Source: Haloferula sp. BvORR071
GTDB taxonomy: Bacteria; Verrucomicrobiota; Verrucomicrobiia; Verrucomicrobiales; Akkermansiaceae
Reading direction: 5' to 3'
NCBI RefSeq assembly: GCF_000739615.1
Contig: NZ_BATP01000035.1
Span: forward strand, 1 to 64,000
Length of the DNA stretch: 64,000 nucleotides
The notes beneath the pieces are model-generated. The model was not told where the DNA came from, searched no databases, and was given only the letters and a program-made list of their open reading frames with translations. The translations under genes were made by a program, and so were the position numbers. Below, piece by piece: positions 18,223 to 53,035 of this stretch (the stretch's first letter is position 1; the number at the start of each line of letters is the position of its first letter).

Positions 18223-18271
18223 TGGAGGCGGAGGAGGGAATCGAACCCTCGAATAGCGGTTTTGCAAACCG
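18223..18271 (-). repeat. attL: displaced 3' end of tRNA-Cys
   Basis: Identical over 49 bp to the 3' portion of the intact tRNA-Cys at 52961-53009, from the anticodon loop through the T arm, acceptor strand and encoded CCA. Homology stops abruptly at both sides, as expected for the crossover segment of a tyrosine integrase. It has no 5' tRNA half, so it cannot produce a tRNA. Confidence 0.93.
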
Positions 18272-18352: not shown

Positions 18353-19630
18353 ATGGGCGAAATGCCGGCCATGAGGAAGCCCAAGGCCCGGTCATGGACC
18401 GATCCCAAAACCGGCAGAGAGTACCTCCGCGTGAGGTCCAGCGATGCCAACGGGAAGGTGATCGCACGGCTTTTCACCGATCCGGAGGATGCCGACCGCT
18501 ACATCGCCACCCTCACCAAGGAAAGGCATCGGCATGGAAGAGCGGCAGCCGTCAATTCGGACGAGATCGACGCGCTCCGGGTATGGCGGGAATACGTCGC
18601 CGCGGAGAACACCGCCGGTCGTGACGCCCCGGCGCTGCGCGATGTTATTCGCCAGGCAATCGAACGGCAGAAGGCCGGCGTAACGAGCCCCCGGATGAGC
18701 GACCTTCGCGATCGCTTTCTCGAAGCGCGGGAACGGGAAGAGCTTTCCTCGCGCCACTTGGTGGGCCTGAAGCACCGGCTCAAGCGATTCGTCTCGTATT
18801 TCGCACCGGCCGATCTTGCGGGAGCCGTCACCACGGAGGAGGTCGAGTCGGCACTCAGTTCGATGCGGGCCGGCGGCTTGTCAGCGCAGACCGTGAAAGG
18901 AATCCGCACCGCAGCCCACGGTCTGTTCCAGTGGGGGATCGATCGCGGCCTCGTTGTCGCCAATCCGGTAACCAAGGCGAAGGCACCCAAAGTCACCCAA
19001 GGCGAAGTTGGCACCATTACCCCCTCACAGCTCCTAGGATTGCTTAGGACGGCCTTGCTGATCTGCCCACGCTCTGTGCCCGCCTTGGCGACCTGGGCCC
19101 TCTGCGGGGCTCGTAGAGCCGAAATTTGCCGGCTGTCTTTCCAAGATCTTGATCGGAAGAGGATGGAGCTTCGAATTTCGGCCAAAGTGGCCAAGAGCGG
19201 GGTGGCGAGATTTGTTCCCATCCCACCTGCCCTCATTGCTTGGTTGGAGGCTGCCGAGGCAGAAGGAGTGGCCCCCGTCGGGAAGCTTGTCCCGGGCGGC
19301 TCAGAAGGCCGTTCGGAGGGCCAGATGATCCGCTGGCTGAAAGAGGTGCGCGAAGAAGCGGGAATCATTGATTGGCCGGCGAATGCGCTGCGGCACTCGT
19401 TCGCTTCGCACGCCTGTGCGCTGCACGATGATTTCGCGAAGGTTGCCGCTTGGCTGGGGCATGCGCGTGATCCGCGCCTACTGGTGGCGAGATATCGGCA
19501 CGCCGTGCCAAAAGATGCCGGTGCGAAATGGTTCGAGGTGACGCCCGGCCTGCGAGGAAAGCGGAAGGGCGCACCGAAAGCATTGGTCGTGGATGGCAAG
19601 CCTAAGAGGGAGGGTCGAGCCGCAGTATGA
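18353..19630 (+). CDS. int: Tyrosine recombinase (integrase)
   Basis: Catalyses site-specific integration and excision at tRNA-Cys. The 425-residue protein has an N-terminal arm-binding-like region, a SAM-like core-binding domain (about 110-200, LSSRHLVGLKHRLKRFVSYF) and a C-terminal catalytic domain. Catalytic residues are visible: Arg in ALCGARRAEICRL, Lys in AKVAKSGVARFVPI, His-x-x-Arg in NALRHSFASH, His in AAWLGHARD and the Tyr nucleophile in LVARYRHAV. It is oriented away from attL, into the element. An internal ATG three codons on (MRKPK-type start) is possible. Its stop overlaps the next gene by 4 bp. Confidence 0.95.
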   Translation: MGEMPAMRKPKARSWTDPKTGREYLRVRSSDANGKVIARLFTDPEDADRYIATLTKERHRHGRAAAVNSDEIDALRVWREYVAAENTAGRDAPALRDVIRQAIERQKAGVTSPRMSDLRDRFLEAREREELSSRHLVGLKHRLKRFVSYFAPADLAGAVTTEEVESALSSMRAGGLSAQTVKGIRTAAHGLFQWGIDRGLVVANPVTKAKAPKVTQGEVGTITPSQLLGLLRTALLICPRSVPALATWALCGARRAEICRLSFQDLDRKRMELRISAKVAKSGVARFVPIPPALIAWLEAAEAEGVAPVGKLVPGGSEGRSEGQMIRWLKEVREEAGIIDWPANALRHSFASHACALHDDFAKVAAWLGHARDPRLLVARYRHAVPKDAGAKWFEVTPGLRGKRKGAPKALVVDGKPKREGRAAV

Positions 19631-20463: not shown

Positions 20464-20490
20464 GTGGTTGAAATTCAGTGAGATCAGTAA

Positions 20491-20505
20491 TGTCCCTAGG
20501 GGACA
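20491..20505. promoter_or_regulatory. Palindrome upstream of the excisionase-like gene
   Basis: TGTCCCTAGGGGACA is an inverted repeat (TGTCCC/GGGACA around TAG) about 57 bp before the excisionase-like start. It may be an operator for that small DNA-binding protein or the element's control region. Evidence is symmetry and position only. Confidence 0.4.
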
Positions 20506-20561
20506 GTAGTGTGATCGCTTCGACTCGCACCATTTCGCGATCCAGCGCTTTGTCGCGTCGT

Positions 20562-20768
20562 ATGACGCTTCCAACTATTCCTGAGACGGGCCGGATCGAG
20601 GTCGCGCTTTTGACGCGGACCGATCTGGCGAAAGCTCTTAATTGCTCACTTCGGAAGATTGACGGGTTACAGGCTGCCGGGATGCCCTGCATTCTCATAG
20701 GCCGCTCCCGGCGCTTTTTATTGGACGAGGTCATTTCCTGGTTGCGCCGGAAGGGGGGTGCCAGGTGA
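20562..20768 (+). CDS. Excisionase-like helix-turn-helix protein
   Basis: Small DNA-binding protein. The frame is open from 20478, but the ATG at 20562 (MTLPTIPETGR) gives a compact 68-residue product. The segment LLTRTDLAKALNCSLRKIDGL, followed by GMPCILIGRSRRFLLDEVISWLRR, is the MerR/excisionase (HTH_17) winged-helix pattern. Such proteins direct excision or regulate the integrase in genomic islands. It precedes the replication genes by about 130 bp. Confidence 0.75.
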   Translation: MTLPTIPETGRIEVALLTRTDLAKALNCSLRKIDGLQAAGMPCILIGRSRRFLLDEVISWLRRKGGAR

Positions 20769-20895: not shown

Positions 20896-21660
20896 ATGAA
20901 GTACCCTGCTGTCATCAGCGCAACATTGGATGATGCCGGGCTCAGCGCCGCGGAGTTCCGCGTGATGTGCGCCGTCTCCCGTCGTGCCGGCGATGAGGCG
21001 AATGGCCGTGGTTGCGATGCTTCACTGGCTGCGTTGTCTCGAACTTGTCGTCTGGATGAAAAGACCGTGCGGCGTGCCCTCAAGATCTTGGCAAAAGGGG
21101 GCTGGGTGGAGGTCCAAGAAAGGCCGGGTAGAACTGCCTCTTACCGCCCCCGCTTTCCACACCCCTACCAAATGGCCCCAGGGGTAGATGATCGTGAAGG
21201 CCTCCCCAACGGCACCCCTGGTGCCAAACGGCACCCCTCCCCAAAGACTCCAGGGGCGGGCTCCCAAACGGCACCAGGGGACCCCTCCCCAATGGCACCA
21301 GACGAAGGGAAACCAGAAGGGAAACCACCAAGGGAAAAGCGGCCCGCTCCTGCGGAGCGTCTTCTTGTCGAGTTTCCCTTGGAACTTTCAGGCACAGCCT
21401 TCGCTTCCGCTTGGAAGGACTGGGAAATCCACAAACGGGAGATCCGGTCCAAGCTCACACCTAAATCCGCCAAGCTTCAGCTTTCTCGGCTCGCCGCGTG
21501 GGGTGAGAGCCGAGCGGTTGCGGCCATCCAACACTCCATCGCGCAGGGATGGAAAGGCGTCTACGAGGCCAAGGAAGCGGCCCTGCCTGCGCCCGCCGCC
21601 ACTACCGCGGGAACGGGTGGTTGGAAGACACCGGACCCGAAATTTTTTGGCACGCAATGA
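20896..21660 (+). CDS. Winged-helix replication initiation-like protein
   Basis: A 254-residue protein. Residues about 14-85 form a helix-turn-helix (LSAAEFRVMCAVSRRA, then SLAALSRTCRLDEKTVRRALKILAKGGWV) like that of phage O or RepA-type initiators. The middle (about 90-150) is Pro/Gly/Lys-rich low complexity and its DNA contains iteron-like repeats. The C-terminal part (LTPKSAKLQLSRLAAWGESRAVAAIQHSIAQGWKGVY, in pieces) is the helical segment common in phage replication proteins. Its stop overlaps the start of the DnaB-like helicase, matching a lambda O/P-like arrangement. It probably binds the element's own origin. Confident as a replication-type DNA-binding protein, less so for the origin. 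Confidence 0.75.
   Translation: MKYPAVISATLDDAGLSAAEFRVMCAVSRRAGDEANGRGCDASLAALSRTCRLDEKTVRRALKILAKGGWVEVQERPGRTASYRPRFPHPYQMAPGVDDREGLPNGTPGAKRHPSPKTPGAGSQTAPGDPSPMAPDEGKPEGKPPREKRPAPAERLLVEFPLELSGTAFASAWKDWEIHKREIRSKLTPKSAKLQLSRLAAWGESRAVAAIQHSIAQGWKGVYEAKEAALPAPAATTAGTGGWKTPDPKFFGTQ
21168..21300 (+). repeat. Iteron-like repeat cluster inside the initiator gene (candidate origin)
   Basis: Six related units begin at about 21168, 21206, 21224, 21241, 21264 and 21289. They share a CCAAA-GGCACC core often followed or preceded by CCCCT or AGGGG; for example CCAAACGGCACCCCT and CCAAACGGCACCAGGGG. Spacing ranges from 17 to 38 bp. They encode the low-complexity linker of the initiator, as the lambda origin lies within gene O. 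The alternative is simple codon slippage in a Pro/Gly-rich linker. Confidence 0.5.
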
Positions 21661-22973
21661 GTCCAACCCTCTTAATCCCTCACGCTCCAATGATTGAAAA
21701 GGCTGTGCTTTCTGTCCTCCTGCGGGAGTGGGAACGCATAGACGGAGCGCCCGACCTGAAAGTGGATCACTTCCACTTGCCTGGGCACCGGCTGCTCTTT
21801 GGCTTCCTGCAGGAGCAGGCGAGGAAGGGAATCGTGCAAGACCTGACCTCGCTGGTGGAGATTCTGCACTCTGCTGGACAACTTGAGGCGATCGGCGGGC
21901 CCGCGGCTGTAATGGAGATCTACACATACGCTCCGACCGGCGCGTACTTCGGAGGGCACCTCGCGATTCTGCGGGACAAACTCGCGCGCCGCCAAGCGCT
22001 CGCAGTGGCAGGGGAGATCGAGCGACTGGTAGTCGAGGCGGAGACCGCGCAAGAGATCATTGAGGCGACCTCCGCGCCGATCACCGAGATTCACGACACG
22101 CTTGCGGCCAGTCGCCCGGCTCCTACCACGAGGAGCGTGCTTGAGGCATGCATCAATCGCTTCGAATCGCTGGTGAAGGGCGATGCCTCACCTATGGGGA
22201 TCAAGACCAGCCTGCCAATTTTCAACAACATGTTCGGCGGACTGCACGGCAAGCAGGCAATCGTCATTTCAGCTTACCCCTCCGACGGCAAAACCACGCT
22301 TGCGGGACAGCTTGCCATGGATGCAGCGCTGGAAGAGGCTGGCACGCTCATTTGCTCGTTGGAAATGCCGGCAGAAGCAATGATGAACCGGCTCCTTGCC
22401 TATGTGGCGCGGCTTCCCGGAGACGCGATTACAGACCCTCTTCGTTACGCCAGGGAACACTTCAGCGCGTGCCACCCTACCAAAGAGACCTTGGGACGCA
22501 TCGGGCAGGCGGCAAAGAGAATCGCAGGTCTTCCTTTCGCGGTCGAGGACATGACTGGCGCGAATGTCTACCAGCTCGCCGCGACAATTCGTCGCCACCA
22601 CCGGCGGTTCCCCTTGCGGGTGGTGGCGGTGGACTTTGCCCAGCGGATCCGGCCAGTGCCGGAGCTTCGGAGGGAAAGCCGTGAGCAGCAGCTCGCCCAC
22701 GCGTCCAACCACCTCGCGGACCTCTGCAAAGAGCTTGGCTTCACGCTGCTCCTGCCATCGCAGCTCAACAAGGAAGGCGCGGCCAAGCATGCCGAGGCGA
22801 TCAACGAGGACGCGGACCTGCATCTTCGGATCAAAACAGAGGTCAAAGACGGCGGTGTCCAGCGGGAGCACGTCGGGCTTGCTGTGATCAAGGATCGTCA
22901 CCACGGTCACAACGGCACGATTTTGCCGGTCGTGTTTGATGCCCCGATGCTTCGATTTGTCCCCAAACCCTAA
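21657..22973 (+). CDS. DnaB-like replicative helicase
   Basis: A 438-residue RecA-fold helicase. The ATG at 21657 overlaps the upstream stop (ATGA); an earlier in-frame start at 21549 would overlap the initiator heavily. The N-terminal DnaB domain (IEKAVLSVLLREWERIDGAPDL, FHLPGHRLLFGFL) is followed by a RecA core: Walker A in AYPSDGKTTLAGQ, LICSLEMPAEAMMNRLLAY, Walker B-like VVAVDFAQRI, and the LLLPSQLN sensor strand. It lacks the long linker of chromosomal DnaB. Paired with the initiator it would let the element replicate after excision. Confidence 0.9.
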   Translation: MSPTLLIPHAPMIEKAVLSVLLREWERIDGAPDLKVDHFHLPGHRLLFGFLQEQARKGIVQDLTSLVEILHSAGQLEAIGGPAAVMEIYTYAPTGAYFGGHLAILRDKLARRQALAVAGEIERLVVEAETAQEIIEATSAPITEIHDTLAASRPAPTTRSVLEACINRFESLVKGDASPMGIKTSLPIFNNMFGGLHGKQAIVISAYPSDGKTTLAGQLAMDAALEEAGTLICSLEMPAEAMMNRLLAYVARLPGDAITDPLRYAREHFSACHPTKETLGRIGQAAKRIAGLPFAVEDMTGANVYQLAATIRRHHRRFPLRVVAVDFAQRIRPVPELRRESREQQLAHASNHLADLCKELGFTLLLPSQLNKEGAAKHAEAINEDADLHLRIKTEVKDGGVQREHVGLAVIKDRHHGHNGTILPVVFDAPMLRFVPKP

Positions 22974-24786: not shown

Positions 24787-24820
24787 AAATCGGCTCCTCG
24801 CAAGAAGGCGCTATGCGAGG

Positions 24821-33341: not shown

Positions 33342-33520
33342 AATCGGTCGATCCACGCCCGTCTCCCTCACAGGAGACATTGCTCCTGGCCGTCACCCCG
33401 GGCCAGCGTGGCTTGCTCGCGGCGCTGGCGATGGCCAAGGCGCTGGAGGAGGAGCAGAAGCGCTGGGGGTTGCCGTTGCTTACTTGGAAGGACGGCAAGG
33501 TTGTAGAGGTGGAGCCGTGA
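33338..33520 (+). CDS. Small protein coupled to the zeta-like gene (candidate antitoxin)
   Basis: A 60-residue protein whose ATG overlaps the stop of the zeta-like gene (ATGA), so it is translationally coupled. The helical middle (RGLLAALAMAKALEEEQKR) is followed by a short beta-like end. No family recognised. Translational coupling next to a toxin-like kinase suggests an antitoxin role, but classic epsilon/zeta pairs place the antitoxin upstream. Confidence 0.6.
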   Translation: MKSVDPRPSPSQETLLLAVTPGQRGLLAALAMAKALEEEQKRWGLPLLTWKDGKVVEVEP

Positions 33521-33546
33521 GATGTCGGCTTCGTTACCTGCCTAGC

Positions 33547-39538: not shown

Positions 39539-41590
39539 CTATTGTGCTAAGGCCTTGAGCAAGGCATCCCGCGCGTCAAAGTAGTAAAGGATTGTGATTC
39601 TCGCCGCCATCTCATCGGGCAAATCGTTCAACTGACGGCGGCTGCTGATCGGCATCAGGATGCTGCTCGCTCCTTTCTCCACAGCGATCTCGACGGCGGA
39701 AACAGGATTAAAGATCGTCTCGATCGAACCTCCTAGGTTCAGGCTTCCGGTTATCATCAGGCCGCCCTTGAGGCTTTTCTGAACAAGTGACGAGCACAGG
39801 GCCAGCAGCACGCCGACCCCGACGCCGGCACCGCTCTTGGCACTGTCGAAGGCGCGGAGCTGCACGGAAAATTCGTGCTGGCGGGGATCACGATCACCAA
39901 CCAGTTCCTTGGCGCGGACGTAGAGGTTTTGCTCGGCGCAGCGGACACTTTCCTTGAACGCCGGCGGGGCGGGTTGATTAAGGATCTTCACGCCGCTGCC
40001 GGGGCCTTCGGTGATATCCACGCGATAGAGGCCAGGGTTCTCGTCTCCGCCACCTGGCGACATCACCCAAACCTGGCCGGGGGGAAGGGGATCGCTGCCG
40101 ATGCTGTCTTCGCTATAAAGCTCGGGCGTAGACACGAACTTTTCCACGCCTTCGTCACCGAGGGTGTAGCTGAATTGAGTATTACGAAACTCCGCGGAGC
40201 CGATTCGCTTCTGCTGCTCCTTGACCCGTCGCCGGCACTCCAAGCTGATGCGCAGCGCCCATTCTAAGACCTCGTCGGAAACAGGGACCTCGGGGTTTGG
40301 TGAGACCAATTTGATGAGGCCGCTCACAGTCTTCATCACGCCCGTCGTATCGCGGCCGCTCAGCGCCCCCCCGAGATGCGCCCGGCCTTGCATCACGCTT
40401 TGGCGGCTTTGGCGTCTCAGTTGGTTCCAGCATTCCGAGAGGTAGTCGCTGACAAGGCCGAAGTGATCGGTGAGGACTTCCCGGCTCACCTTGGGCACAT
40501 CCCAGCCCGGCAGGTAGGCGTGGATGCGATCCATGAACGCGGTGTCGTCCCGCATCTCCGCCGGCAGCGGACCGAAGAGGTGCCCGATCCGCTGCTGGTG
40601 CTGCACGTCCACGTCGAAGTTGCCGACCATGACCATGCCGCCATCGGCCCGGATGCTCTCCTTGCCGCGGCTGAACTCGCCGGACTCCATGTAGCCCTTC
40701 ATGATGTTCACGCCGTCCTTTTGGTCGAAGGACACTCCGGAAATCTCGTCGAAGCACACCACGTCATACTGGCAAACCAATCCTCGTTGCCCGCTGCTGT
40801 TGTTCACGAACATGCGCGCGACCGATGACTTGCCGCCCGAAACGAGGTGCGCGTATGGGGAGATCTGTTGGAAGAGGTGGCTCTTGCCGGTGCCCCGCGG
40901 CCCTAGCTCCACCACGTTGTAGTTTCGCTCCACAAACGGCACCATGCGCAGGAGGATCATGTCCCTGCCGCGTGGAGTGAGCTTCTCCGGCTCCATGCCG
41001 ATGCTCCGGATCAGGAAATCCTTCCACTCTTCCGTGGAGAACGCTTCCCGGCCAGCGTAGAGCGTCGGCAGCACCTCGCGCTTGGAGAGCTGGATCTCAC
41101 GCATGTTCTCGATCCCGAACGGGCGGCCGTTTTTCTCCTGTGCGATGGTCGGATCATAGGCGAGTTCCACCTCGGCGTAGAATCCGCCGGTGAGCATCCG
41201 CTCGTTGGCATGGACCATTTCCTCGCTGATCCTCACATCCTTCAGCTGCACGCTCGGCAGGGTGGCCAGGAACGAATCAGTGTTGGAATCCAACCGGGCG
41301 GTGATGATGTCGATCAACTTCACGTGGCCCTTCTCCTTGGCGCGGGCCTTGAACAATTCATGCTCACCGGCGCGGATGGTCTTCTCGCCCAGTTGCCGCT
41401 CCACGATCTTCAGCCCCTCCGCGATTTCCTCCTCATCCACGGACGAGCAGTAGCGCCCAAGCAGGAACTCGGCGACGTAGGTTGGGACGGGGTACTGGCC
41501 TTTGAATTTCCGCACCAAGTCCTTCCGGACCACGTAGCCTTCAAAAGCTCTGGTTGCGATTTGATCGATGGGATCCAGTGGCTCGCTCAT
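39539..41590 (-). CDS. brxL: BREX protein BrxL (Lon-like AAA+ protease family)
   Basis: Last gene of the BREX operon; 683 residues, usual BrxL length. BrxL forms DNA-binding AAA+ rings in BREX defence. Near residues 230-245 is the Walker A loop GPRGTGKSHLFQ, followed by VCFDEISGVSF (Walker B) and the sensor region. The C-terminal 140 residues resemble a Lon-type protease domain: SAKSGAGVGVGVLLALC then GGLMITGSLNLGGSIETI. The N-terminal region matches BrxL (FKGQYPVPTYVAEFLLGRYC). The ATG follows pglZ by 3 bp, so translation is coupled. Required for defence but not always for methylation in known systems. Confidence 0.95.
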   Translation of the reverse strand: MSEPLDPIDQIATRAFEGYVVRKDLVRKFKGQYPVPTYVAEFLLGRYCSSVDEEEIAEGLKIVERQLGEKTIRAGEHELFKARAKEKGHVKLIDIITARLDSNTDSFLATLPSVQLKDVRISEEMVHANERMLTGGFYAEVELAYDPTIAQEKNGRPFGIENMREIQLSKREVLPTLYAGREAFSTEEWKDFLIRSIGMEPEKLTPRGRDMILLRMVPFVERNYNVVELGPRGTGKSHLFQQISPYAHLVSGGKSSVARMFVNNSSGQRGLVCQYDVVCFDEISGVSFDQKDGVNIMKGYMESGEFSRGKESIRADGGMVMVGNFDVDVQHQQRIGHLFGPLPAEMRDDTAFMDRIHAYLPGWDVPKVSREVLTDHFGLVSDYLSECWNQLRRQSRQSVMQGRAHLGGALSGRDTTGVMKTVSGLIKLVSPNPEVPVSDEVLEWALRISLECRRRVKEQQKRIGSAEFRNTQFSYTLGDEGVEKFVSTPELYSEDSIGSDPLPPGQVWVMSPGGGDENPGLYRVDITEGPGSGVKILNQPAPPAFKESVRCAEQNLYVRAKELVGDRDPRQHEFSVQLRAFDSAKSGAGVGVGVLLALCSSLVQKSLKGGLMITGSLNLGGSIETIFNPVSAVEIAVEKGASSILMPISSRRQLNDLPDEMAARITILYYFDARDALLKALAQ

Positions 41591-41593
41591 AAA

Positions 41594-43918
41594 TTATTCT
41601 CCAAGGGTGGTTTGCAACGAATCAATCACCGTTCCCGCGGGGTCCAACAAGACGATCTCCGCCTGCTTGCCCATGCTGCCGTCGTCATCAAGAAAGACGG
41701 TCACCTTGTCCCCGGCGGTGATCTTCACGGCCTGCTTGTTGGCGAGCAGGGAGGTTTCGCTGTCGGCCTGATGGTTCCGAACATCAACCGAGAAACCGTC
41801 GGCATCGCCGCTCACGGAAACCCGGCACTTGGCACCGGTCCACTTGCCTTCGACCAATCGGACCAAACCGCCTGAAGGCCCGCCCCGTGAAATGTGCAGA
41901 ACGGGCGTGACCATCTCCTGGAGGGAAATGCCGCCGTGGGTGTATTCCATGGACGCACGGAAGCACCCCACACCTGGCGGGCTCGCGATGACGACTTCTT
42001 CGTTCCAGTGCCACTTCAGCGTCGGTACGTCGGTCTGCGATTCCGCCTTCATCGCGGCGCAGCGTCCCCAGCGGTGATCCGCGAGGCCGGCCTTTAGCTC
42101 TACCTTGGGCAGGCCTCCCGGCAGCAGGAGCCATCCGTGATCCGTGACCACGAACATCTCCTTCCAACCCGCTGTTAGCAGTGCGGAAATTCGGCTGGCG
42201 AGATCGCGCACTTCCGTCTCCACGCTGCGGGCGAGCTTCCAGCCCTCGTTGTGGCCGCGTTTATCCAAAGCTCCTGCTTCTGTCCACGCCGATCCCGAAG
42301 GATCTCCGGTTTGGTCGGATCTGAGAAATTGCCAGCCACTTTCCTTCAATGCGGCGATGAAGCGATCCTGCGTCAGGGTCTGGCCGGTGTTGATGAGTCG
42401 CGTGGTGAATGCGTCGCCCGCCTCACCACCCTGCACCTTTCGCGCAATCGGCGATGCTGCCGCTTTTGCGGTAGCGGTCACGGATGGAACCGTGGACCAC
42501 TCCCAGTCTTGCGTGGACTCTATGCCGGCCCCTGCCAGTTGCTCCGCCAGTTGCCGAGCGACATCCATGCGTAGTCCGTCGGCAAACAGCACCAAGCGTC
42601 CCGGCGCTGGTTCTAACGGTTTCGCACGCTTTGCGACGGCGAGGCCGCGGGCCCGGATTAGCTGCTGGAGTTGGCGGGCGGTGGCTTCCAGCCAAGGGAG
42701 ATAAACCGACCGCAAAGTCCCCAGAAGCGCGCCGTGCTGCTCTTGTGTCCCACAGGCACCCATGGCGGCGAGTGCCGCGGCGTCCACCTGCCAGCCTGAA
42801 CTGGCGTAGTTCTCGGCGTAGGCCTCCGGTGTAGGCGCACCTGGGACGGTTTGGCACGCATGAGCCACGTGCGCGAGCGGTTCAAGCGCGGTCGCCAGCG
42901 GACTCAAGCCGAGCTGCTGCCACGGGTAGCGGCGGCGCGGCGCATGTTGTTTTTCGAGTTCGGCGATTCCCGTGATCGCTTCGTGCTGCGGCCGGTCCGC
43001 CAGCTTGGTGAGCGCCTGCTGCAGTGCCCGCTCTTCTCGCTCGTTGATGTCAGGCCAGACTTCCGCGGTGTCGAAGATCGATGCCTCCTTGGGGGCGGCC
43101 CGTTTCAGCCAGTGCACGATTCCCTTATAGCTCACGGGCGTTTCGGCGAAGCGCTGCCATACTTTGCCCCATGAGTTGTCGCGCCCGGACAGGAGCTGTG
43201 CTGCCTTGAGCGGCCCTTCCTTCACCGGGTCGAAGCGGAAATCGGTTTTGCACTGCTCGCAGAAGGCCTTCCATTCTGCGTCCGAGTGGCACTTCAAAAA
43301 TGCGTCCGGGTCACTCAACCAGCGAAGCAGTAGGCCAGTGGCGTCAGGTGCCACCATGCCGTTGAAAAAATCCCCGTCCAGCCGCCGGCCGAGCAGTTCG
43401 AAAACCGGGGTGCCCAGCAGAATGGGCAGGGCACCGGTAAGCGCGTCAAGCGTCGCCTGGTCTTTGGCGACATCAAGATTCAGTCCACCATGCTTGGAAA
43501 CGAGGAAACCGTATGGCGTCCATTCCTTGCCATTCGTGTGCAGCCACACCACTCCGCGATGCTGGAGTTCAACCAGCACAGCGAGTTCTTGCGGGCAATG
43601 CTCTGCCGCGCGCAGTTTCTCACGGCTAATGCCGGGCAGGTAAAAAATCGGGGTCGTACCGGAGGGTGGCGCGCCGTCCACGCATCGCGCTTCGATGCAT
43701 CGCAGCCATAGCGCTGGTCCGCTGCGCTTTTCGGCAGCGTATTCTCCCAGCACGAACAACTCGGGTGCCAGCTCCTGCAACAGTGGCACCACGCCCTCCC
43801 ACAATCGTTCAGGATCCGCCCAGAGCACGGCACATGGGGCGACTTGATCGCCCGGCGCATAGGCCTGGGCAGCGATTCTCAGCGTAGATACCAGTTTGTC
43901 CGAAAGACTCTCACTCAT
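41594..43918 (-). CDS. pglZ: BREX alkaline phosphatase-like protein PglZ
   Basis: 774-residue PglZ of the BREX-1 type (resembling type B). The PglZ phosphatase-like core is in the C-terminal half: RLVLFADGLRMDVARQLAEQL gives the metal-binding Asp and VTDHGWLLLPGG a second Asp-His pair, as in alkaline phosphatases. The N-terminal half, before about 350, is variable as usual. It works with PglX to allow host methylation and phage exclusion. Located between pglX (73 bp gap) and brxL (3 bp gap). Confidence 0.93.
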   Translation of the reverse strand: MSESLSDKLVSTLRIAAQAYAPGDQVAPCAVLWADPERLWEGVVPLLQELAPELFVLGEYAAEKRSGPALWLRCIEARCVDGAPPSGTTPIFYLPGISREKLRAAEHCPQELAVLVELQHRGVVWLHTNGKEWTPYGFLVSKHGGLNLDVAKDQATLDALTGALPILLGTPVFELLGRRLDGDFFNGMVAPDATGLLLRWLSDPDAFLKCHSDAEWKAFCEQCKTDFRFDPVKEGPLKAAQLLSGRDNSWGKVWQRFAETPVSYKGIVHWLKRAAPKEASIFDTAEVWPDINEREERALQQALTKLADRPQHEAITGIAELEKQHAPRRRYPWQQLGLSPLATALEPLAHVAHACQTVPGAPTPEAYAENYASSGWQVDAAALAAMGACGTQEQHGALLGTLRSVYLPWLEATARQLQQLIRARGLAVAKRAKPLEPAPGRLVLFADGLRMDVARQLAEQLAGAGIESTQDWEWSTVPSVTATAKAAASPIARKVQGGEAGDAFTTRLINTGQTLTQDRFIAALKESGWQFLRSDQTGDPSGSAWTEAGALDKRGHNEGWKLARSVETEVRDLASRISALLTAGWKEMFVVTDHGWLLLPGGLPKVELKAGLADHRWGRCAAMKAESQTDVPTLKWHWNEEVVIASPPGVGCFRASMEYTHGGISLQEMVTPVLHISRGGPSGGLVRLVEGKWTGAKCRVSVSGDADGFSVDVRNHQADSETSLLANKQAVKITAGDKVTVFLDDDGSMGKQAEIVLLDPAGTVIDSLQTTLGE

Positions 43919-43991
43919 CCTCGATCATCTCCTTCTTGGATATTTGCAGCCGTTGCCGCGCGTGCGTCGCGACCTGATGCAGTTTTTCTAT

Positions 43992-46900
43992 TCATGGGTC
44001 CGCCTTCTCTTTCTGTGACCTCTTCAGATTCACGTCATTGACTCGATCCGCCACGAAGGAGTTGCCTTTCCAGAACCAGGGGAACTCGGCTTTCTCTCGG
44101 TGAGGTTCTTTGCCACGATCCTTATCCCACTTAATGTTGGGCTTGGCGCGGAGGAGGCCGGCTCCGCTTTTGCCGCCGGGGATATCGGTGGCCATGAAGG
44201 GGCGGATGTTGATGCGAACGCCGTCGTTAAGGTCGGGGTGCCAGCCGATGGATTGCTTCGAGAGCGGCTTCCAGCGGACGAAGAGGTCGTAGGGTGGCTC
44301 GCCTTCGAGGATGAGCTTGAGGCGGACTTGCAGGAGCTTGGCGGCTTGAAGCCGGGAGTCGCTGCCGGACTCGCCGGCATCCACCGCGGCTTGCTGGCGG
44401 CGGATCCAATCGCCGAGGTAAGCGTATGTTAGGTTTTCCAGTTTGGCGTGGGTGAGCTTGTGGTAGTTCAACAGCGCGCTGAAGCCGCTCTTGTGCCCGT
44501 CCCAGACGTGCCAGATGAAGGGGCGATTGTGGAAGAGTGCGCAATGCTGCTCGAAGAACTCGTCGCGCAGCCAGTCTTCGAGAGATTCGGATTTGCTGCC
44601 CTTGGGACCGGAGCTGGCGAGAAGGGCAGGCAGGTCGAGCTTGCCGAGGGTCTGGACGAGCAGTGCGCGCAGGCGTTCGGCAGCAGGCGCTTCGCCCTTG
44701 GTGGCGGAGAGGCAGACGATGCCATCGTCATCCGCCACTGCTTCCAAACCATCCGGGCCGAGCGCCGGGCAATCGGGAAAACTTGAACCGGTCTGGCGCG
44801 GCCACTGGTACCCAAGCAAGCGCGCCACGGACACGTGCAACGGCTGGTCAGCCCCGGCCGGGTGGCCGTTGAACAGCCATTGCGTCGGGTCGCTGGAAAA
44901 GGGGTTCGGCAATCCGTGCGGATACTTATCCGCCGCCGCCTTCTGCCAGTGCGCGGCGTCGAATGGAACTTTCACAAATGTTCCGGCCGTAACCGCCATT
45001 TTTGGCTCTAAAAGTCGGAGGGTTGTCTTGAAATCTGGCGAAGTGCAAAACGTCCAAAGTGCCGATAGGTTGCTTGCGTCGTTCGGAATTAGAACCGCGA
45101 GGTTGTCGTCGAAGAGTTCTCCTTCGTAGCGCGTGCAGTGAAGATGATTCATCTTGGCGATGGCTACTCCCTTTTGACCTAACACCCGTTGGCCACGTTC
45201 TGCGAATCCAATCTCGGTTCGTGGATCAAAGCCATCTAACCGCCAAAGCACTACCTGCTCTCGTCCGCCCCATGGCTGTTTCTCATCAGGACTGTTTAGC
45301 CAATATCGGCAACCTTCAACAATCCTATCAAATTCCCAGAAGTTCCGAAGGTAGTGAGGGCCATCGCCAGTCACGCTTCCTTTCCCAAATACTGCTGCTT
45401 TTCCCAATAGGTCATGCGACCCAAGCTCGCTAATAATCACTCGATTATCAGGGTTGTGTAGTTGACTACGCTGGCTTAGCACGGAAACAGAGGCGCTACG
45501 TAGCAAAGAAGCTTTTTGCGAGGGGTCCCGAGGCGCGGAAACATCAATGCCGCCGATTGACGAATCTGCCAAACTTGTCTCGGAATTAAGCACAATTAAA
45601 AGAGTGTTTGCGCCCCACCAATTCATATCCTGGAACGCCGCAGGGCCGAGCTGGGCGACGATCTTAAAACAACGATCATTGAGTAAGCTTGTTCGAAGCT
45701 TCCGAAACGAGCCGAGCGATATCCAATTCTGCGGCGTTACTAAGGCGGTAGTGCCATGCGATCCTTGAGTTCCACAGAACTCCAGGCAACGCTCTACGAA
45801 GGCTGTAGCGAGGTCCGCTTTGGACTGCGGGTAAACGCGTTCGCAGTAATCTTGGAGAACTTCATCCTGTTTTCCCCGTCCGAGGTAAGGCACGTTGGTG
45901 GCGACGAGCGTAAACTGGCTGGCGAGAATTTCCGCTGCCTTGGCCAAGCCGCGCGCGGTCACGGCCATTTCGTGCTCTGTGCCGTCCTTGGCCTCCTGCT
46001 CCAGCGCCTTTTCCAGCAGCGGCAGTAGTTCATGGAACGCGGCCACCAGCAAATCGCCCTCGCCGGCGCTCGGGTTGATGAGACTGCCCAACACCGCCGC
46101 CTTTTGGAACAGTCGATAAAGCCGCTCCATGCCGCGCTGGAGCTTGGGGTTGTCGCCGGCAATCGCCAGCCAGTCGGCTTCTCGGGTGTTCGGCGCGAGG
46201 CCGGAGCAAGCCAGGTTCATCGCCGGCAGTTTGCAGTGGCCCACGCGCCTCCATGCGACCAGCGCCAGGTTGAACGCGACAATCTGCGTGCAGCGCGGGT
46301 CAATCTCCAAGCCGAACAGGTTTTCGCGGATGACCGCCGCCACCGCCGCCGCCTCGTCCATTTTTTCCTCGGCTAGGCGCAAGGCTACCAGCCGTTCGAA
46401 CATCGCTACCACGAAATGCCCGCTGCCCATGCACGGGTCGAGCGCCCTGAGGGCGGCCGCGGATTTGGGCCAACCGTCGAACGAGCCAGCGGCGGGAGTC
46501 CACTTGCCGTCCGTGCCTTGGATGAAGCGCAGATATTTCCACGGGCAGCCCGGCAGAGTAACAGACTGGCGAAGTTCGTCCTCCGAGCTGAGATCCGAGA
46601 GTTGAGGACTGAGAGCCAATTGTTTTTCCGCCCACCACGCACCGAGCGTGTTGTCCAAGAGGAAGTCCACCATGTAATCCTCGGTGAAGAGCTGGGTGAC
46701 CGGTGAGATCTCATCGGCACCGATCTTGTTGCCGGACTTATTGACCTCTTCCTTCTTGTCCGCCTGCCAGAATTGATAGCACCAGCCCAGGCTGTCACCG
46801 GCGGTGAAGACTTCCACTGGCAGCCCGGTGACAAGGGCGATGAGCGGCTTGCGATCCTCCACGGGAAGCTCCACCGCTCCCGCCGGATCATCGGCACGGA

Positions 46901-47336
46901 AGATTTCCGGCAGCTCGACTGCGGCGAAGCGGGCGGCGACGGCCCAAGCGTCCTTCAGGCCCACGGACGGCGCGAGTTCCTCACAATCGTCCAGCGAGAC
47001 GGCCACACCGTGGTCCGGAGAGATGAGGAGGTCGTTTTCCAGCAGGTAGCGGGCGAAGAGGATGCGGTGCCATTGGTCGTAAGCGAGTTTCTCGACGAGG
47101 TGGGTGATCTCGTATGAGCCGCGTTTCACGTGGCTCTCACCATCGCCGAGCTGCTTGGCCTGGGCGCGGAGCTTGCGGCGGAGCGCGCGCTGGACCTCGT
47201 CCATGTGGGGGTAGGGGTCCGGCTCATGCACGGCGAGGGCTTCGAGGGACTTCTGCGCCCCTCCGGTGGCGATCTTGTGGGCCTGCTTAACTGCCGATTC
47301 CAACAGCTTGCGGTGGGGAGTGGTGAGAGCGGACAT
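43992..47336 (-). CDS. pglX: BREX adenine-specific DNA methyltransferase PglX
   Basis: 1114-residue methyltransferase, slightly shorter than the ~1200 typical of BREX-1 PglX. SAM-binding motif I is LDPCMGSGHF near residue 300, and the catalytic motif IV is NVPY at about 481, where classic N6-adenine enzymes have NPPY. Methylation of a non-palindromic site marks host DNA, sparing it from the defence. The C-terminal half contains the target-recognition part (for example WGREQVVLWRLDGFDPRTE). A 54-bp gap separates it from brxC. Confidence 0.95.
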   Translation of the reverse strand: MSALTTPHRKLLESAVKQAHKIATGGAQKSLEALAVHEPDPYPHMDEVQRALRRKLRAQAKQLGDGESHVKRGSYEITHLVEKLAYDQWHRILFARYLLENDLLISPDHGVAVSLDDCEELAPSVGLKDAWAVAARFAAVELPEIFRADDPAGAVELPVEDRKPLIALVTGLPVEVFTAGDSLGWCYQFWQADKKEEVNKSGNKIGADEISPVTQLFTEDYMVDFLLDNTLGAWWAEKQLALSPQLSDLSSEDELRQSVTLPGCPWKYLRFIQGTDGKWTPAAGSFDGWPKSAAALRALDPCMGSGHFVVAMFERLVALRLAEEKMDEAAAVAAVIRENLFGLEIDPRCTQIVAFNLALVAWRRVGHCKLPAMNLACSGLAPNTREADWLAIAGDNPKLQRGMERLYRLFQKAAVLGSLINPSAGEGDLLVAAFHELLPLLEKALEQEAKDGTEHEMAVTARGLAKAAEILASQFTLVATNVPYLGRGKQDEVLQDYCERVYPQSKADLATAFVERCLEFCGTQGSHGTTALVTPQNWISLGSFRKLRTSLLNDRCFKIVAQLGPAAFQDMNWWGANTLLIVLNSETSLADSSIGGIDVSAPRDPSQKASLLRSASVSVLSQRSQLHNPDNRVIISELGSHDLLGKAAVFGKGSVTGDGPHYLRNFWEFDRIVEGCRYWLNSPDEKQPWGGREQVVLWRLDGFDPRTEIGFAERGQRVLGQKGVAIAKMNHLHCTRYEGELFDDNLAVLIPNDASNLSALWTFCTSPDFKTTLRLLEPKMAVTAGTFVKVPFDAAHWQKAAADKYPHGLPNPFSSDPTQWLFNGHPAGADQPLHVSVARLLGYQWPRQTGSSFPDCPALGPDGLEAVADDDGIVCLSATKGEAPAAERLRALLVQTLGKLDLPALLASSGPKGSKSESLEDWLRDEFFEQHCALFHNRPFIWHVWDGHKSGFSALLNYHKLTHAKLENLTYAYLGDWIRRQQAAVDAGESGSDSRLQAAKLLQVRLKLILEGEPPYDLFVRWKPLSKQSIGWHPDLNDGVRINIRPFMATDIPGGKSGAGLLRAKPNIKWDKDRGKEPHREKAEFPWFWKGNSFVADRVNDVNLKRSQKEKADP

Positions 47337-47390
47337 GGGGAGGAAGGCGATTGTAGACTAGGATCGATTGATGAACGGGGCTCGCGGCGC

Positions 47391-50300
47391 TCAAAGGGTG
47401 ATGGGGCCGGCCTTGAGTTGATTCTCCGCCAGCACTCGGGCGTCGGCGAACCATTGGTCGAGCTGGGCAGTCGTATGGATGGTTCTGCTAGGGAGAACCA
47501 CACGGACGGCCTCTGGCTCCAACGAAGCACGGGCTTCCTCCAAGGCGCGGGAGAAACGCTGCGGCACGGCGTCCAGCAGGTTGTGGCGGTCGACCAGGGT
47601 GCGCGTATGGAGGGCAGCGAGGATTTCCTCGTCTGAGCCGATGGCGACCTTCGCGGGGGGCGTGAGTTGGCAGGATGCGGTGAGCGTGGCGCGTTGTTCG
47701 TCGGTCAGGCGGCTCCACAGATCCGAGGTGGCGAGTTTATCCTGTCCTGCGGCAAACGCCGCGGTGAGGTCGTCCTGTAGTTTCCCGAGGGCACTGCGCA
47801 AGGCGGTGGAGAGCTGCTTGATCAGCTCCGGCAAGGGATCGGGGTCCGCCAGCAGGTTTCGGTCCCGGATGATGGCGGCGATGGATGTGGCGCAGGCCTC
47901 TCCCTCCGGCAGGCTGCTCGCGAAGCCTTGGAACTCCGCCAACCTTTGCCACTCAGGCCAGCGCTGAGCGATGGCATCGGCGCTCTTTTTCCAAGCCGCG
48001 AGTTGGGCGGCGAGAGCGTCCTTTTGCTCGTGAAGCTTGAGGAGTTGCGCGTTGCCGCTGAGCAACTGGATATCGCGGACATGCTTTGTGTCTGGTGCCT
48101 CAGGACGTGGAGCCTCGCCACCGGCAGACTCCGCCATGGCGAGCAGCTTCTGGAGAAACTGGGCGGCGGCCTCGGGCTCCTTGCCATTCTGGGTGGTGAC
48201 GGAGAGCTTTTGAAACAGCGCCTTAAGGTCGAGGCGCTGCTGCACATTGAGCGGCGGCACGTCCACGTAGTAGGTGGCGATCCCCACTTGGCTCTGCACC
48301 AGCGATTGTGCATGGACGGGATTGCCGTTCAAGGTTGCGCGGAGATTGCCTGCGACTAGCATGAGATAGAGCGCGCCGTCGATGGCATCCTGTGCCCAGC
48401 CGTAGGGTGCGGACTTGAAGAACTCGCGGAGGTCCTTGCCCTTCTTCCCGGCACCGATGAAGTCGAGAACACGGCGGCACACGGGATGCTTGGTGACATC
48501 GCCCTGATATCCTACCTGGGCAAGCGCGCCGACATCGCCGCCACGGGCCTTGCTGACCACGAGGCCCCAGTTGCCGTGATCTGCTTCGGAGAATTGCGGG
48601 AAGAGCCGCTCCACGGCGTTGTCCCCCGAGTCCTGCACCTTGTCCGCCAACTCGATGCCATTGGCCTCCTGACCGCCGCCGAGGAAAACCTTGGATCCGC
48701 CTATGATAAGGCCCAGCAGATCTTGGATGCGGTGAGTCGCGACCTCCAGATGAGTCTCAACCGCTTTGCGCGCCTCGATGGCCTCCGGGGTAGTTGCAGT
48801 TCCGTGGGCATCCAAGGTTTCCTGCGCGGCAATCTGAGAAGCGATGGCTTGGCGCAATTCCTCATGATGCAGGCGCGGCAGGTAGCCGAAGAGGACAGGG
48901 CTCTCGACGCCAGCGGCGCGGGCATCGTTCAAGACAGATTTTTCGTCGTCGCTCCAACCATCGCGTAGCCATAGAGAGACTTCATCACTTGTGGACGCCG
49001 GGCGGCTGGAAGACAGCTCGAACGCCAACTTGCGTGCCTGGTTGGAGGTGCCCTGTTTCAGAGTCACCGGCTTGAGGGCCTGCTTGGCGCCCGTGCGGAG
49101 AAGTTCGGCCCGCTTGGAGTTGATGCGCTCCTCGTCATTGAGGGCGGAGGAACGTCGGCGGTTGAAGTCTTGCGTCCAGCGCGAGCCCTCCTTGGTCTGG
49201 AGGCGAAATTCCTTTTCGACGGGCATGAGCTGTCCGGTTTTGACGAGTTCCTCCAGTATCACCGGCACCTTCTGCTCCAGCTTCGGGCGATCGCTCTTAA
49301 GATCGCTCACCAAAAGGTCCAACAGCGTCTCGGCGTTGGCGCGGACGCCATCGTCGGCACCGGGGGTGCGCGGCAGTTTGCCGATCAGGAAAATCAAGGC
49401 GCAGATGCTGGAGCGGAGGTCGCCGTCCGGAGTGCCGTCGCGCTGCTTGCGGATGATTTCGTCGTACTCTCGCTCCAGTTCACCGGAGTTGAGAAGGTCT
49501 GTGGAGATCTGGTCGTAGATGAAATCGGCCGGCACTACGGAGCCAACGGCCGCGGCGGCTGTTTGTCGGGTCGCCTCGAAGACGACCTGCATCTGGGAGC
49601 GCAACTGGGCCTTGGTGCCGGAGTGGTCGGTATTGCGCAGAACTTTCTCCCAGAACCGCCGGCGGGTGGGGAGCAGCGGGTAGTCGGCGACGAAGTATTT
49701 TTCATCGTCATGATTTGCCGCGAGCCGAGTATCCTGAAGATGGCGGGCGAGTTCGCCTTGGTTGGCCTCCATGCATTTTGTGATCGCCGCTTCCTGCTCC
49801 GGCTTCTTGCGGAGAACCGTCTTGCGGATCACGCTCTCGACGTCTGTATCGGAGAGCTGGACGCGCACGAAGAAGCGAGCCTGAAGGCGCTGCAAGCTGG
49901 GAGTGGTATTAAGCGCTGACTGCCCTGTGCCGACAATTAGCAGCCGACTGCCGAGGTCCGTGCTGCAATGCTCGGCGATTTCCTGCACGTCATTTGCCCG
50001 CGGGATTTTTTCACCGATGAACTGCTGAACTTCGTCTACTACCAGCAGGGTGCAGGGGAGCTTGTTGCCATCACCATACACCTGCTTAAGGAGCTCTAGC
50101 GTCTGCTTGATCGTGGGAGACGTGATCTCAGGAAAACCGGTGCGGATTACCTCTTGGACGTTGGGCAGGGACCCGTATTTGGGATCGGCAGCGAGTAGTG
50201 CCTCTGCTAGGGGCACCGAGTAGTTCATACTCTCCACCTCCTCCATGAGGCTGCAATCGCTCGCTTTCAATGCCGCTGTGATGGCTGCTTCCAAGCCCGA

Positions 50301-50828
50301 GGAACGGAGCCAGAGGATGAACTTCGCGTGGGCGAGATCTTCCGGGAGACCGGCGGAGCGCAAGACGAGTTGGACGAAAGCTAAGCGGACATTGTCCATC
50401 GAGCCCGCGCCGAGCGTTCCCGCCGCCGCGCGTAGTCCGCCAAGCGGCTTGCTTCGACTGCTCAGTTCTTTCAGTAGATCGGAAATCTCTGATGGCAGCT
50501 TCACCAAGGAGCGAGCGGTGGCACCGTCGGCGAAGTGATAATCCTCCCAAAGGTAGCGGAGTACTTTGACTAGGTGGGACTTGCCACTGCCGAAGAAGCC
50601 GCTGACCCAAACTGCCTTTTGTTCGGGCTGACCCAAGCCTGCGAGGTAGGCCCTGAGGATTCGTTCAAGGCCACGGGCATATTCGCCATCGCAGACGAAG
50701 GTTTCCAACTCGAAGCGGAGGGTCTGGATCTGGCGTTCGTCGTGACCAATCTCGGAAACTTTCGAGACGCCATTGTTGAGCAACTCCAGGGTGGTGGGAT
50801 CGCGGAAGTAGAGTTCGCGGTTGGTCAT
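47391..50828 (-). CDS. brxC: BREX ATPase BrxC
   Basis: Large 1145-residue ATPase essential for BREX. Walker A is VSGFFGSGKSHLVKVL near residues 75-90, and a Walker B-like strand appears in CTLLVVDEVQQFIGEK. The rest is mostly helical (coiled-coil-like stretch KLHEQKDALAAQLAAWKKSADA). Size and start (MTNRELYFRDPTTLELLNNGVSKV) match BREX-1 BrxC. Its ATG overlaps the brxB stop by 4 bp, indicating co-translation. Confidence 0.95.
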   Translation of the reverse strand: MTNRELYFRDPTTLELLNNGVSKVSEIGHDERQIQTLRFELETFVCDGEYARGLERILRAYLAGLGQPEQKAVWVSGFFGSGKSHLVKVLRYLWEDYHFADGATARSLVKLPSEISDLLKELSSRSKPLGGLRAAAGTLGAGSMDNVRLAFVQLVLRSAGLPEDLAHAKFILWLRSSGLEAAITAALKASDCSLMEEVESMNYSVPLAEALLAADPKYGSLPNVQEVIRTGFPEITSPTIKQTLELLKQVYGDGNKLPCTLLVVDEVQQFIGEKIPRANDVQEIAEHCSTDLGSRLLIVGTGQSALNTTPSLQRLQARFFVRVQLSDTDVESVIRKTVLRKKPEQEAAITKCMEANQGELARHLQDTRLAANHDDEKYFVADYPLLPTRRRFWEKVLRNTDHSGTKAQLRSQMQVVFEATRQTAAAAVGSVVPADFIYDQISTDLLNSGELEREYDEIIRKQRDGTPDGDLRSSICALIFLIGKLPRTPGADDGVRANAETLLDLLVSDLKSDRPKLEQKVPVILEELVKTGQLMPVEKEFRLQTKEGSRWTQDFNRRRSSALNDEERINSKRAELLRTGAKQALKPVTLKQGTSNQARKLAFELSSSRPASTSDEVSLWLRDGWSDDEKSVLNDARAAGVESPVLFGYLPRLHHEELRQAIASQIAAQETLDAHGTATTPEAIEARKAVETHLEVATHRIQDLLGLIIGGSKVFLGGGQEANGIELADKVQDSGDNAVERLFPQFSEADHGNWGLVVSKARGGDVGALAQVGYQGDVTKHPVCRRVLDFIGAGKKGKDLREFFKSAPYGWAQDAIDGALYLMLVAGNLRATLNGNPVHAQSLVQSQVGIATYYVDVPPLNVQQRLDLKALFQKLSVTTQNGKEPEAAAQFLQKLLAMAESAGGEAPRPEAPDTKHVRDIQLLSGNAQLLKLHEQKDALAAQLAAWKKSADAIAQRWPEWQRLAEFQGFASSLPEGEACATSIAAIIRDRNLLADPDPLPELIKQLSTALRSALGKLQDDLTAAFAAGQDKLATSDLWSRLTDEQRATLTASCQLTPPAKVAIGSDEEILAALHTRTLVDRHNLLDAVPQRFSRALEEARASLEPEAVRVVLPSRTIHTTAQLDQWFADARVLAENQLKAGPITL

Positions 50829-51376
50829 GAGGTGAGGAAGCTTTCGGTGGAAGTGATCGGCGTGGCCATGTAGTTGAAGCCGTCACGGGCATCCATGAAC
50901 CGATAAAGGGTGCCTTGGAACTCTCCGGGAAACATGACGAGCAAGCGCCCGCGCACGCTGTCTTCGACGCGGTCGATCAAGCTGGAGACGCGCATGAAGT
51001 CGAAGAGCGACGCGAGGCCGGTGATCACCACGACGCTGTTTGCATCGGAATGGGCGCAGGCGGCGTCCACCATGGTGGCGGCACGGACTTCCAGTTGGGT
51101 GCCGGCCTTGAGATGCTGAGGCTTCTTGAAAATCTCCTCCCGGTACTTGTGGGTGGACAGGAACTCGGGGAGGAGGGCCGTGAGATCTACGGGGATCCAG
51201 TCGTGACCTGCCCCGAGGGTCACTTCCTCAAACTGAGGCATGCGCGCGCGAACCCGACGTTCCTCCGAAGGGGGATAGACCGCAAACCAGACCCGCTGTT
51301 TTCCTGCCGCATTGGGGGACCACGGCAGGCGGACCTGCCGGGTGTAGTTCGCAAGAAGACGATCGATGGCGCTCAT
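50825..51376 (-). CDS. brxB: BREX protein BrxB (DUF1788)
   Basis: 183 residues, matching DUF1788/BrxB: RQVRLPWSPNAAGKQRVWFAVY, then ERRVRARMPQFEE, AGHDWIPVDLTALL and KYREEIFKKP. The later LASLFDFMRVSSLIDRVEDSVRGRLLVMFPGE (in pieces) completes the family pattern. An essential but biochemically obscure BREX component. Overlaps the brxA stop and brxC start by 4 bp each, so it is tightly coupled in the operon. Confidence 0.93.
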   Translation of the reverse strand: MSAIDRLLANYTRQVRLPWSPNAAGKQRVWFAVYPPSEERRVRARMPQFEEVTLGAGHDWIPVDLTALLPEFLSTHKYREEIFKKPQHLKAGTQLEVRAATMVDAACAHSDANSVVVITGLASLFDFMRVSSLIDRVEDSVRGRLLVMFPGEFQGTLYRFMDARDGFNYMATPITSTESFLTS

Positions 51377-52188
51377 GATTGTGGGATTTGGAACTCAGCG
51401 AACATCGGAAAGGTCAGCTCAACCACCTCACCGACCGCGCGCAGATTGATCAGCCCCGCTCGATGGGCCTCGAATCCGAGGGATTTGGCACCGTCGGGGT
51501 CCAGATCGAGCAGGCGGCACCAGGGACTGGAGAACACCGCGGCCCCGTGGTGCCCCGCGGCGCTGCCAAGAATCAGGGCCAGAGTGACAGCAACGATCGT
51601 CGGTTTGACGCGGCTGCGTACTTTTTTCGCGCGGCCGGCGAGATGCCCGGATTGGGTCCAGGAGGATGCGGCATTGCGGCCAATCTTGTCGGTGTTCAGA
51701 TCGGAGTATTGATTAGGAAAGGCATCAAGCGCTGCGAGCGACAGTGCCTTAGTCTCCACGCGATCCCCCTCGGGCACCTCCAAGACCGCAGGTGTAGTAG
51801 AACGGAGAAGATGATCTCGCGACCACGCGATCTGCATGGCGAGGAGCGGCAGGCTCGCCGCGTCCAAGGCATGAAGAGCACGTAGAAGCTTGAAGATCGG
51901 GACCTCTTCATCGAGCGCGTAGAGTTCCCGGAGGTGGCGCAACGACTTTTGCCGTGTGCTGTCGGTGGCCTTTCTCAGGGCGTTTCGCAGCAGGATCGCA
52001 TCGCGATACTCCCCGGCTGGCGAGCCTGCGGGAACCGCCGCCAGCACCGCCTCAAGTTCCGCCAGCATGATGGTGCGGCTGATGTGCGTGCCTCCGCCCG
52101 AGAATTTCAGCCCAAACTTCACCAAGCCGGCCAACGCAGCGGGTGAATCATGCGGGAATGTAGGATGGGAGGGATTCAAGGAATACAT
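51373..52188 (-). CDS. brxA: BREX protein BrxA (DUF1819)
   Basis: First gene of the BREX operon, 271 residues. Family features: SGGGTHISRTIMLAELEAVLA near the start, YALDEEVPIFKLLRALHALD and the signature GRNAASSWTQSGHLAGRAKKVR at about 190-211. BrxA homologues are small helical DNA-binding proteins. The usual N-terminus fits the ATG at 52188, although no strong ribosome-binding site is visible. The promoter must lie in the 52189-52960 spacer. Confidence 0.93.
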   Translation of the reverse strand: MYSLNPSHPTFPHDSPAALAGLVKFGLKFSGGGTHISRTIMLAELEAVLAAVPAGSPAGEYRDAILLRNALRKATDSTRQKSLRHLRELYALDEEVPIFKLLRALHALDAASLPLLAMQIAWSRDHLLRSTTPAVLEVPEGDRVETKALSLAALDAFPNQYSDLNTDKIGRNAASSWTQSGHLAGRAKKVRSRVKPTIVAVTLALILGSAAGHHGAAVFSSPWCRLLDLDPDGAKSLGFEAHRAGLINLRAVGEVVELTFPMFAEFQIPQS

Positions 52189-52960: not shown

Positions 52961-53009
52961 TGGAGGCGGAGGAGGGAATCGAACCCTCGAATAGCGGTTT
53001 TGCAAACCG
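52961..53009 (-). repeat. attR: 3' part of the intact tRNA-Cys
   Basis: The 49-bp sequence shared with attL, lying within tRNA-Cys. The element supplies this 3' end, keeping the tRNA whole after integration. Confidence 0.92.
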
Positions 53010-53035
53010 ATGCCTTACCACTTGGCTACTCCGCC
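52961..53035 (-). tRNA. tRNA-Cys (GCA)
   Basis: A 75-nt tRNA on the minus strand with all four arms: acceptor GGCGGAG pairing CTCCGCC, D arm GCC/GGC, anticodon loop TTGCAAA (anticodon GCA) and a T arm with GAGGG-TTCGATT-CCCTC. The discriminator base is T, typical for Cys, and CCA is encoded. The 27-43 pair is mismatched (T-C), otherwise standard. It is the integration site of the element. Confidence 0.95.

Follow-up and report, generated by a model that had tools for sequence, protein, structure and literature searches.

Complete type 1 BREX operon with a type B PglZ on an element at tRNA-Cys in Haloferula sp. BvORR071

The window, i.e., the whole stretch of 64,000 nucleotides of contig NZ_BATP01000035.1 that was analysed, contains what we consider, with a probability of roughly 85%, to be a complete and selectively maintained type 1 BREX operon belonging to the PglZ type B branch, located on a tyrosine-recombinase element in the 3' part of a tRNA-Cys gene. 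Its identification as BREX is based on near full-length family matches in the expected order, and on models of BrxA and PglX that match solved structures. Its assignment to an element is based on the att repeat, the tRNA, the integrase and a sibling element that a congener (G003) has in the same tRNA, its att alleles being those of that host, while selective maintenance is argued from rough dN/dS ratios of 0.02–0.24. On the other side are a PglX that scores below the NCBI cut-off and has NVPY rather than NPPY at motif IV, and a region upstream of brxA with no promoter-like or conserved sequence.

An intact six-gene operon of type 1

Open reading frame calling yielded six adjoining frames on the minus strand, from the start of brxA at 52188 down to the end of brxL at 39539 (Table 1), all of them open, full length and unbroken. 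An intact type 1 operon at these coordinates, with the gene order brxA-brxB-brxC-pglX-pglZ-brxL and with overlaps or short gaps between the genes, had been proposed from the DNA letters, and every part of this proved correct. The brxA/brxB and brxB/brxC junctions are 4-bp overlaps, and the brxC/pglX, pglX/pglZ and pglZ/brxL junctions are gaps of 54, 73 and 3 bp respectively. All six genes of the type 1 set are thus together in a single operon, and the best PADLOC models span nearly the entire length of all six proteins. Pfam confirmed BrxB and BrxL. With NCBIfam, BrxL passed TIGR02688 (432.5 against a cut-off of 329.3) and narrowly missed TIGR02653 (611 against 628), while BrxA and BrxB gave no match. 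PglX reached 308 bits with the NCBIfam BREX-1 PglX model, under its cut-off of 500. A frameshift as the cause of this low score was ruled out by the open frame and by a PADLOC match over the full length.

The AlphaFold model of BrxA (pLDDT 89) had a sole PDB match at E ≤ 0.001, i.e., BrxA 7zge, with a TM score of 0.62 on the target. The model of PglX was of moderate quality (pLDDT 75, pTM 0.45) and matched the E. coli and Salmonella BrxX/PglX structures best: its six top PDB matches were all BrxX/PglX chains (E about 1e-28 to 1e-29), but the global TM scores were low (0.37–0.42). The type 1 BREX systems of E. coli HS and Salmonella D23580 have the identical six genes in the identical order, according to the available parts of the two reports (PMC11842806, PMC11341690). 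By analogy with the type 1 systems that have been studied, PglX would methylate host DNA at N6 of adenine within an asymmetric recognition site, and the remaining five proteins would contribute to blocking phage DNA that lacks this mark.

Table 1. Positions in the window of the BREX genes and of the features that delimit and follow the ends of the element
Feature	Coordinates	Strand	Description
Second att copy, left element end	18223..18271	+	Exact 49-bp repeat
Tyrosine integrase	18353..19630	+	425 aa; Pfam Phage_integrase 40.1 bits, cut-off 27.1
Small HTH protein	20478..20768	+	Weak PHROG HTH and terminase-small-like matches; possibly excisionase-like, from its position
O-like replication initiation protein	20896..21660	+	phrog_678 E 1.6e-18; Pfam HTH_36
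DnaB-like helicase	21549..22973	+	Pfam DnaB_C E 3.6e-30; phrog_19 E 2.5e-55
brxL	39539..41590	-	683 aa; P-loop GPRGTGKS from residue 230; PADLOC 965 bits
pglZ	41594..43918	-	774 aa, type B; NCBIfam BREX_PglZ_1_B 863 bits, cut-off 400; PADLOC 895 bits
pglX	43992..47336	-	1114 aa; predicted N6-adenine methyltransferase; PADLOC 1433 bits
brxC	47391..50828	-	1145 aa; P-loop GFFGSGKS from residue 77; PADLOC 1308 bits; NCBIfam 736 bits, cut-off 400
brxB	50825..51376	-	183 aa; PADLOC E 3.4e-57, 191 bits; Pfam BrxB above cut-off
brxA	51373..52188	-	271 aa; PADLOC BrxA E 6.6e-76, 253 bits; AlphaFold model resembles BrxA 7zge
tRNA-Cys(gca)	52961..53035	-	ARAGORN; 52961–53009 is the right-end att copy

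The operon is the last cargo of an element at tRNA-Cys

ARAGORN found one tRNA in the window, a tRNA-Cys, and an Rfam scan gave nothing besides it. The 3' 49 bp of this gene are repeated exactly at the left att position (Table 1). Within the window, exact repeats of at least 25 bp were confined to two offsets, i.e., the att pair and a duplicated gene end, and in the whole genome the tRNA end matched at the two att positions only. The integrase gene starts 81 bp inside the left copy and its frame is open, so that an integrase adjoins one att copy while the other lies inside the tRNA gene. The exact repeat of the tRNA end and the integrase at its left copy place the element between 18223 and the tRNA, a length of about 34.8 kb. 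Integration would have taken place in the 3' part of tRNA-Cys, leaving the tRNA gene whole. The original prediction had placed BREX as cargo at the distal end of an integrated, possibly replicating island at tRNA-Cys. The operon is indeed the last cargo, 772 bp from the tRNA and at the opposite end to the integrase. Downstream of the integrase are, in order, a 278-aa protein without matches, the small HTH protein, the O-like initiator and the adjoining DnaB-like helicase, the last two of which fit the suggestion of replication.

No relaxase, conjugation or capsid family, and no phage structural family, was found among 30 element ORFs scanned with Pfam, with some small ORFs outside the scan. 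The relaxase and conjugation genes of an integrative conjugative element were therefore not seen in this set. A phage-like integrase, initiator and DnaB are present, and among 10 ORFs scanned with PHROGs there was one weak terminase-small-like match (E 1.6e-5). The carrier might derive from a phage or resemble a satellite, with a helper phage rather than conjugation as its means of transfer; this is compatible with the operon being BREX. The consecutive order of integrase, small HTH protein, O-like initiator and DnaB resembles that of phage replication modules, and one IMG/VR contig encodes a DnaB 39% identical to that of the element, but viral contigs contained no relative of the integrase, of which two distant partial matches were found in plasmids. 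Similarly, the available text of PMC10121019 places E. coli BREX at two hotspots only, both among P4-like satellite sites in tRNA genes, but the element studied here yielded no structural family in the scans above and has Ku, an error-prone DnaE-type polymerase and Hsp20 aboard. On balance we regard a phage-derived carrier as possible but doubtful.

Whatever the carrier, BREX on islands and on integrative conjugative elements is already known, and the window is a further, mostly ordinary instance of that arrangement. BREX is also cargo of integrated elements at the E. coli tRNA hotspots (PMC10121019, available parts), and the SXT/R391 elements carry a six-gene BREX in the same way; however, the latter have PglZ of type A and are conjugative (PMC7251087, available parts), whereas no transfer genes were found in the element of the window.

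Several other genes of the element were noted. Between 29110 and 39040 it also encodes a DnaE2-type polymerase, an SRAP protein, Ku and TPR-like proteins. At a distance of 4.3 kb from the error-prone DnaE-type polymerase gene (29110–32247) there is a degraded, 75%-identical copy of its 3' end (24818–25205 compared with 29107–29532), apparently what is left of a duplicate gene. Two consecutive genes at 32787–34284 may have further defence or addiction functions: the first encodes a zeta-toxin-like protein (Pfam E 3.2e-10), and the product of the second matches AbiEii weakly (PADLOC E 0.0014). To the left of the element, at 13775–17485, GC content dips to 56–58% around a nucleotide-sugar-transferase-type gene, and this is possibly another foreign stretch.

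tRNA-Cys is shared by elements with different cargo

In G003, which belongs to the same genus, an 86%-identical stretch spans the att site and the integrase (the integrase match changes frame), and the other att copy is inside the orthologous tRNA-Cys, with the chromosome beyond it 78–83% identical to the window. The tRNA of G003 differs from that of the window at two of 49 bases, and both of its att copies carry the G003 bases. The att alleles thus match the tRNA of their own host, a pattern that site-specific recombination in each host would produce. No BREX match was found in the G003 element, which is 16.5 kb long. Detached exact tRNA-Cys ends were also found in G009 (52 bp; L079, 16722–16773) and G007 (32 bp; L088, 10477–10512), in each case beside another tyrosine-recombinase-like gene, and weaker detached matches in G007, G012 and G014. 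A Ku gene 62% identical to that of the window lies near the att copy of G009. Elements are therefore present at tRNA-Cys in 4 of the 18 genus genomes searched, that of the window included. Judging from those in G003, G009 and G007, tRNA-Cys is an insertion site common to several elements, with changing cargo, and a single tRNA is used by several integrases.

A search for the same cargo at tRNA-Cys in relatives had been suggested. No BREX was found there in a relative, and PglZ had no match in the other genomes with tRNA-Cys elements (G003, G007 and G009). The one congener with this operon, G006, has it on short contigs, and the 5.8 kb covered beside its tRNA-Cys contains sulfatase-like genes rather than BREX. 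Among the relatives compared, there was no empty tRNA-Cys site that ran into the left flank of the window, and the sequence on the element side of tRNA-Cys did not match that flank. A well-bounded BREX on a tRNA island, together with a BREX-less sibling in the same tRNA, makes it possible to study gain and loss of the cargo.

Distribution of the operon across lineages

PglZ was found in 2 of 57 relatives, i.e., the genome of the window and G006, and in 9 of the 387 genomes of a phylum sample, again including the window's own. A wider set of loci consisted of the best 80 of 468 relatives in a scan of named genomes, and came from many phyla; it partly overlaps with the phylum sample (judged by length and place, L126 is the same contig as L089, and L099 the same as L028). 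A BrxL tree with 69 rows was built in "quick" mode, without bootstraps, and one row, L166, read in the wrong frame (19 stops), forms a long branch near the root. On this tree the window groups with L099 and L100, both labelled Verrucomicrobiota, and a starred set of 21 rows that includes the window comprises 8 Pseudomonadota, 5 Verrucomicrobiota, 3 Acidobacteriota and others. Phylum labels changed 26 times over the tree, against a possible minimum of 14 and an average of 39.3 after shuffling, so that the labels cluster yet cross phyla. Because bins may carry incorrect taxon labels (L099, which matches genome G006, bears the title Akkermansia muciniphila, and L121 that of Klebsiella pneumoniae), this supports, without proving, transfer of the operon between phyla.

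The original prediction had also seen in the element a clear route for the spread of BREX. The BrxL tree makes movement of the operon between lineages likely; however, the 30 ORFs scanned matched no transfer or capsid family, no BREX was found at tRNA-Cys in a relative, and nothing tied such movement to this element, which may nevertheless excise and transfer. tRNAs were near the operon in 6 loci of the best 80 of 468, a count that gives no rate, the flanks being at most 10 kb and many contigs short. There was no PglZ in phage records. Six contigs listed in IMG/VR had a type B PglZ, four of them with a full brxL match adjoining it, the others with matches of 351 aa (L219) and a 78-aa piece (L214).

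Purifying selection and a replaced target-recognition block

Two sister operons were compared with that of the window, one from G006 (its contig is also CAMCYK010000304.1) and one from a Prosthecobacter bin (L100). BrxL is about 96% identical in both, and BrxC is 94% identical in G006 and 84% in L100. dN/dS per gene was 0.03–0.24 against G006 and 0.02–0.24 against L100, lowest for BrxL and highest for PglX, ratios that are rough because dS was high (0.5–2.3), with brxC and pglX of G006 also cut by contig ends. By this measure the operon is under purifying selection in its lineage. These low ratios, like the six open full-length frames, argue against the operon being intact but inactive here, an unexpressed passenger, as might be supposed from the 772 bp upstream of brxA, where there was no promoter-like match (to a sigma-70-type consensus, which may not suit the host), and neither a regulator nor conserved sequence was found. 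We consider such a passenger improbable and prefer a maintained operon.

The high ratio for PglX is due to a single divergent block at about residues 551–800. In 50-residue bins, identity within this block was 18–42% with G006 and 24–34% with L100, against 55–100% (G006, residues 1–100 uncovered) and 62–96% (L100) outside it, ranges that exclude the short final bins (46% of 13 residues, 75% of 12 residues). Thus, the target block has been replaced between the window and its two sisters. Since the target-recognition domain of Salmonella PglX, given as residues 662–849 of 1225 in the available part of PMC11341690, occupies a like relative position, the three operons likely read different sites.

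An altered motif IV in PglX of the type B branch

The window PglX could be aligned only in parts, and with low identity, with those of E. coli and Salmonella, whose operons also differ from that of the window in that its PglZ is type B. Motif I (DP..GSGH) of the methyltransferase is present. Motif IV is NVPY (residues 481–484, in the context T-N-V-P-Y) instead of the NPPY seen in alignments of the two solved sequences, Salmonella and E. coli PglX/BrxX. In the best 80 of 468 loci, motif IV was covered in 47 and was NVPY in 40, NVPF in five and NPPY in two (L161 and L177), i.e., NVP[YF] in 45 of 47, while motif I was kept in all 45 loci in which it was covered. In the phylum sample, the NCBI BREX-1 PglX model matched in 21 of 387 genomes, 13 over the cut-off and 8, with the window's among them, below it. 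All eight of the latter had NVPY. Over the cut-off, 12 of 13 had NPPY or NPPF, partly picked by eye among several pattern matches; the other, G366, had no NPP[YF] in the pieces covered. On these motifs and scores, BREX-1 PglX splits into two branches in the genomes sampled, with NVP[YF] in the type B branch, to which the operon of the window belongs. In the literature collection searched, we found no paper on an NVPY methyltransferase motif or on PglZ type B.

In M.TaqI, the first proline of this motif acts mainly through its backbone. NVPY is most simply read as a substitution that the enzyme tolerates while remaining active. The consistency of NVP[YF] (45 of 47 informative loci in the best 80 of 468), with NPP[YF] in the other branch, could also mean that type B BREX leaves no lasting N6-adenine mark, the altered motif making PglX a binding or conditional enzyme, with self told from non-self in some other way. 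However, the window PglX keeps the asparagine and tyrosine of motif IV which, in the available part of PMC11842806, respectively contact and stack on the flipped target adenine in E. coli BrxX. The branch likewise keeps Asn and Tyr/Phe, as well as motif I in every covered locus of that set, and the divergence of the target-recognition block between sister operons points to marking at specific sites. A system without a lasting mark therefore seems to us quite unlikely, and an active PglX remains the preferred reading. A broader proposal, which we put forward only as a long shot, is that the type B branch uses an altered-motif PglX (N-V-P-Y/F) overlooked by NCBI naming and, if the reaction is altered, a variant self/non-self scheme that has moved between phyla, its recognition blocks being exchangeable. 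If true, the motif change could mean a slower reaction, one dependent on partner proteins, or one that leaves no lasting mark. Because the two solved PglX sequences aligned have NPPY, type B deserves a direct test, and the NVP[YF] branch may be of more use than the operon itself. In seven plasmid records with a full-length type B PglX, none was named PglX (the gene table was incomplete): two were called hypothetical protein, two N-6 DNA methylase and one type II restriction subunit, and two had no listed gene.

Type B BREX plasmids such as pHALHY02 of Haliscomenobacter share the gene order of the window for PglZ type B, BrxC, BrxL and a PglX relative, but at 34–48% identity and with McrBC-like genes between pglX and pglZ. 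In the window this slot is 73 bp, whereas in G006 it holds an SbcD-like gene (49.6 bits, below the cut-off) and others, including genes read by eye as SbcC-like and DUF1016-type. Extra genes at this position are described as common in the available part of PMC11341690. On two type B BREX plasmids (L220 and L221), the slot between the pglX relative and pglZ holds McrBC-like genes, or HNH, DarT-like and HsdR-like genes.
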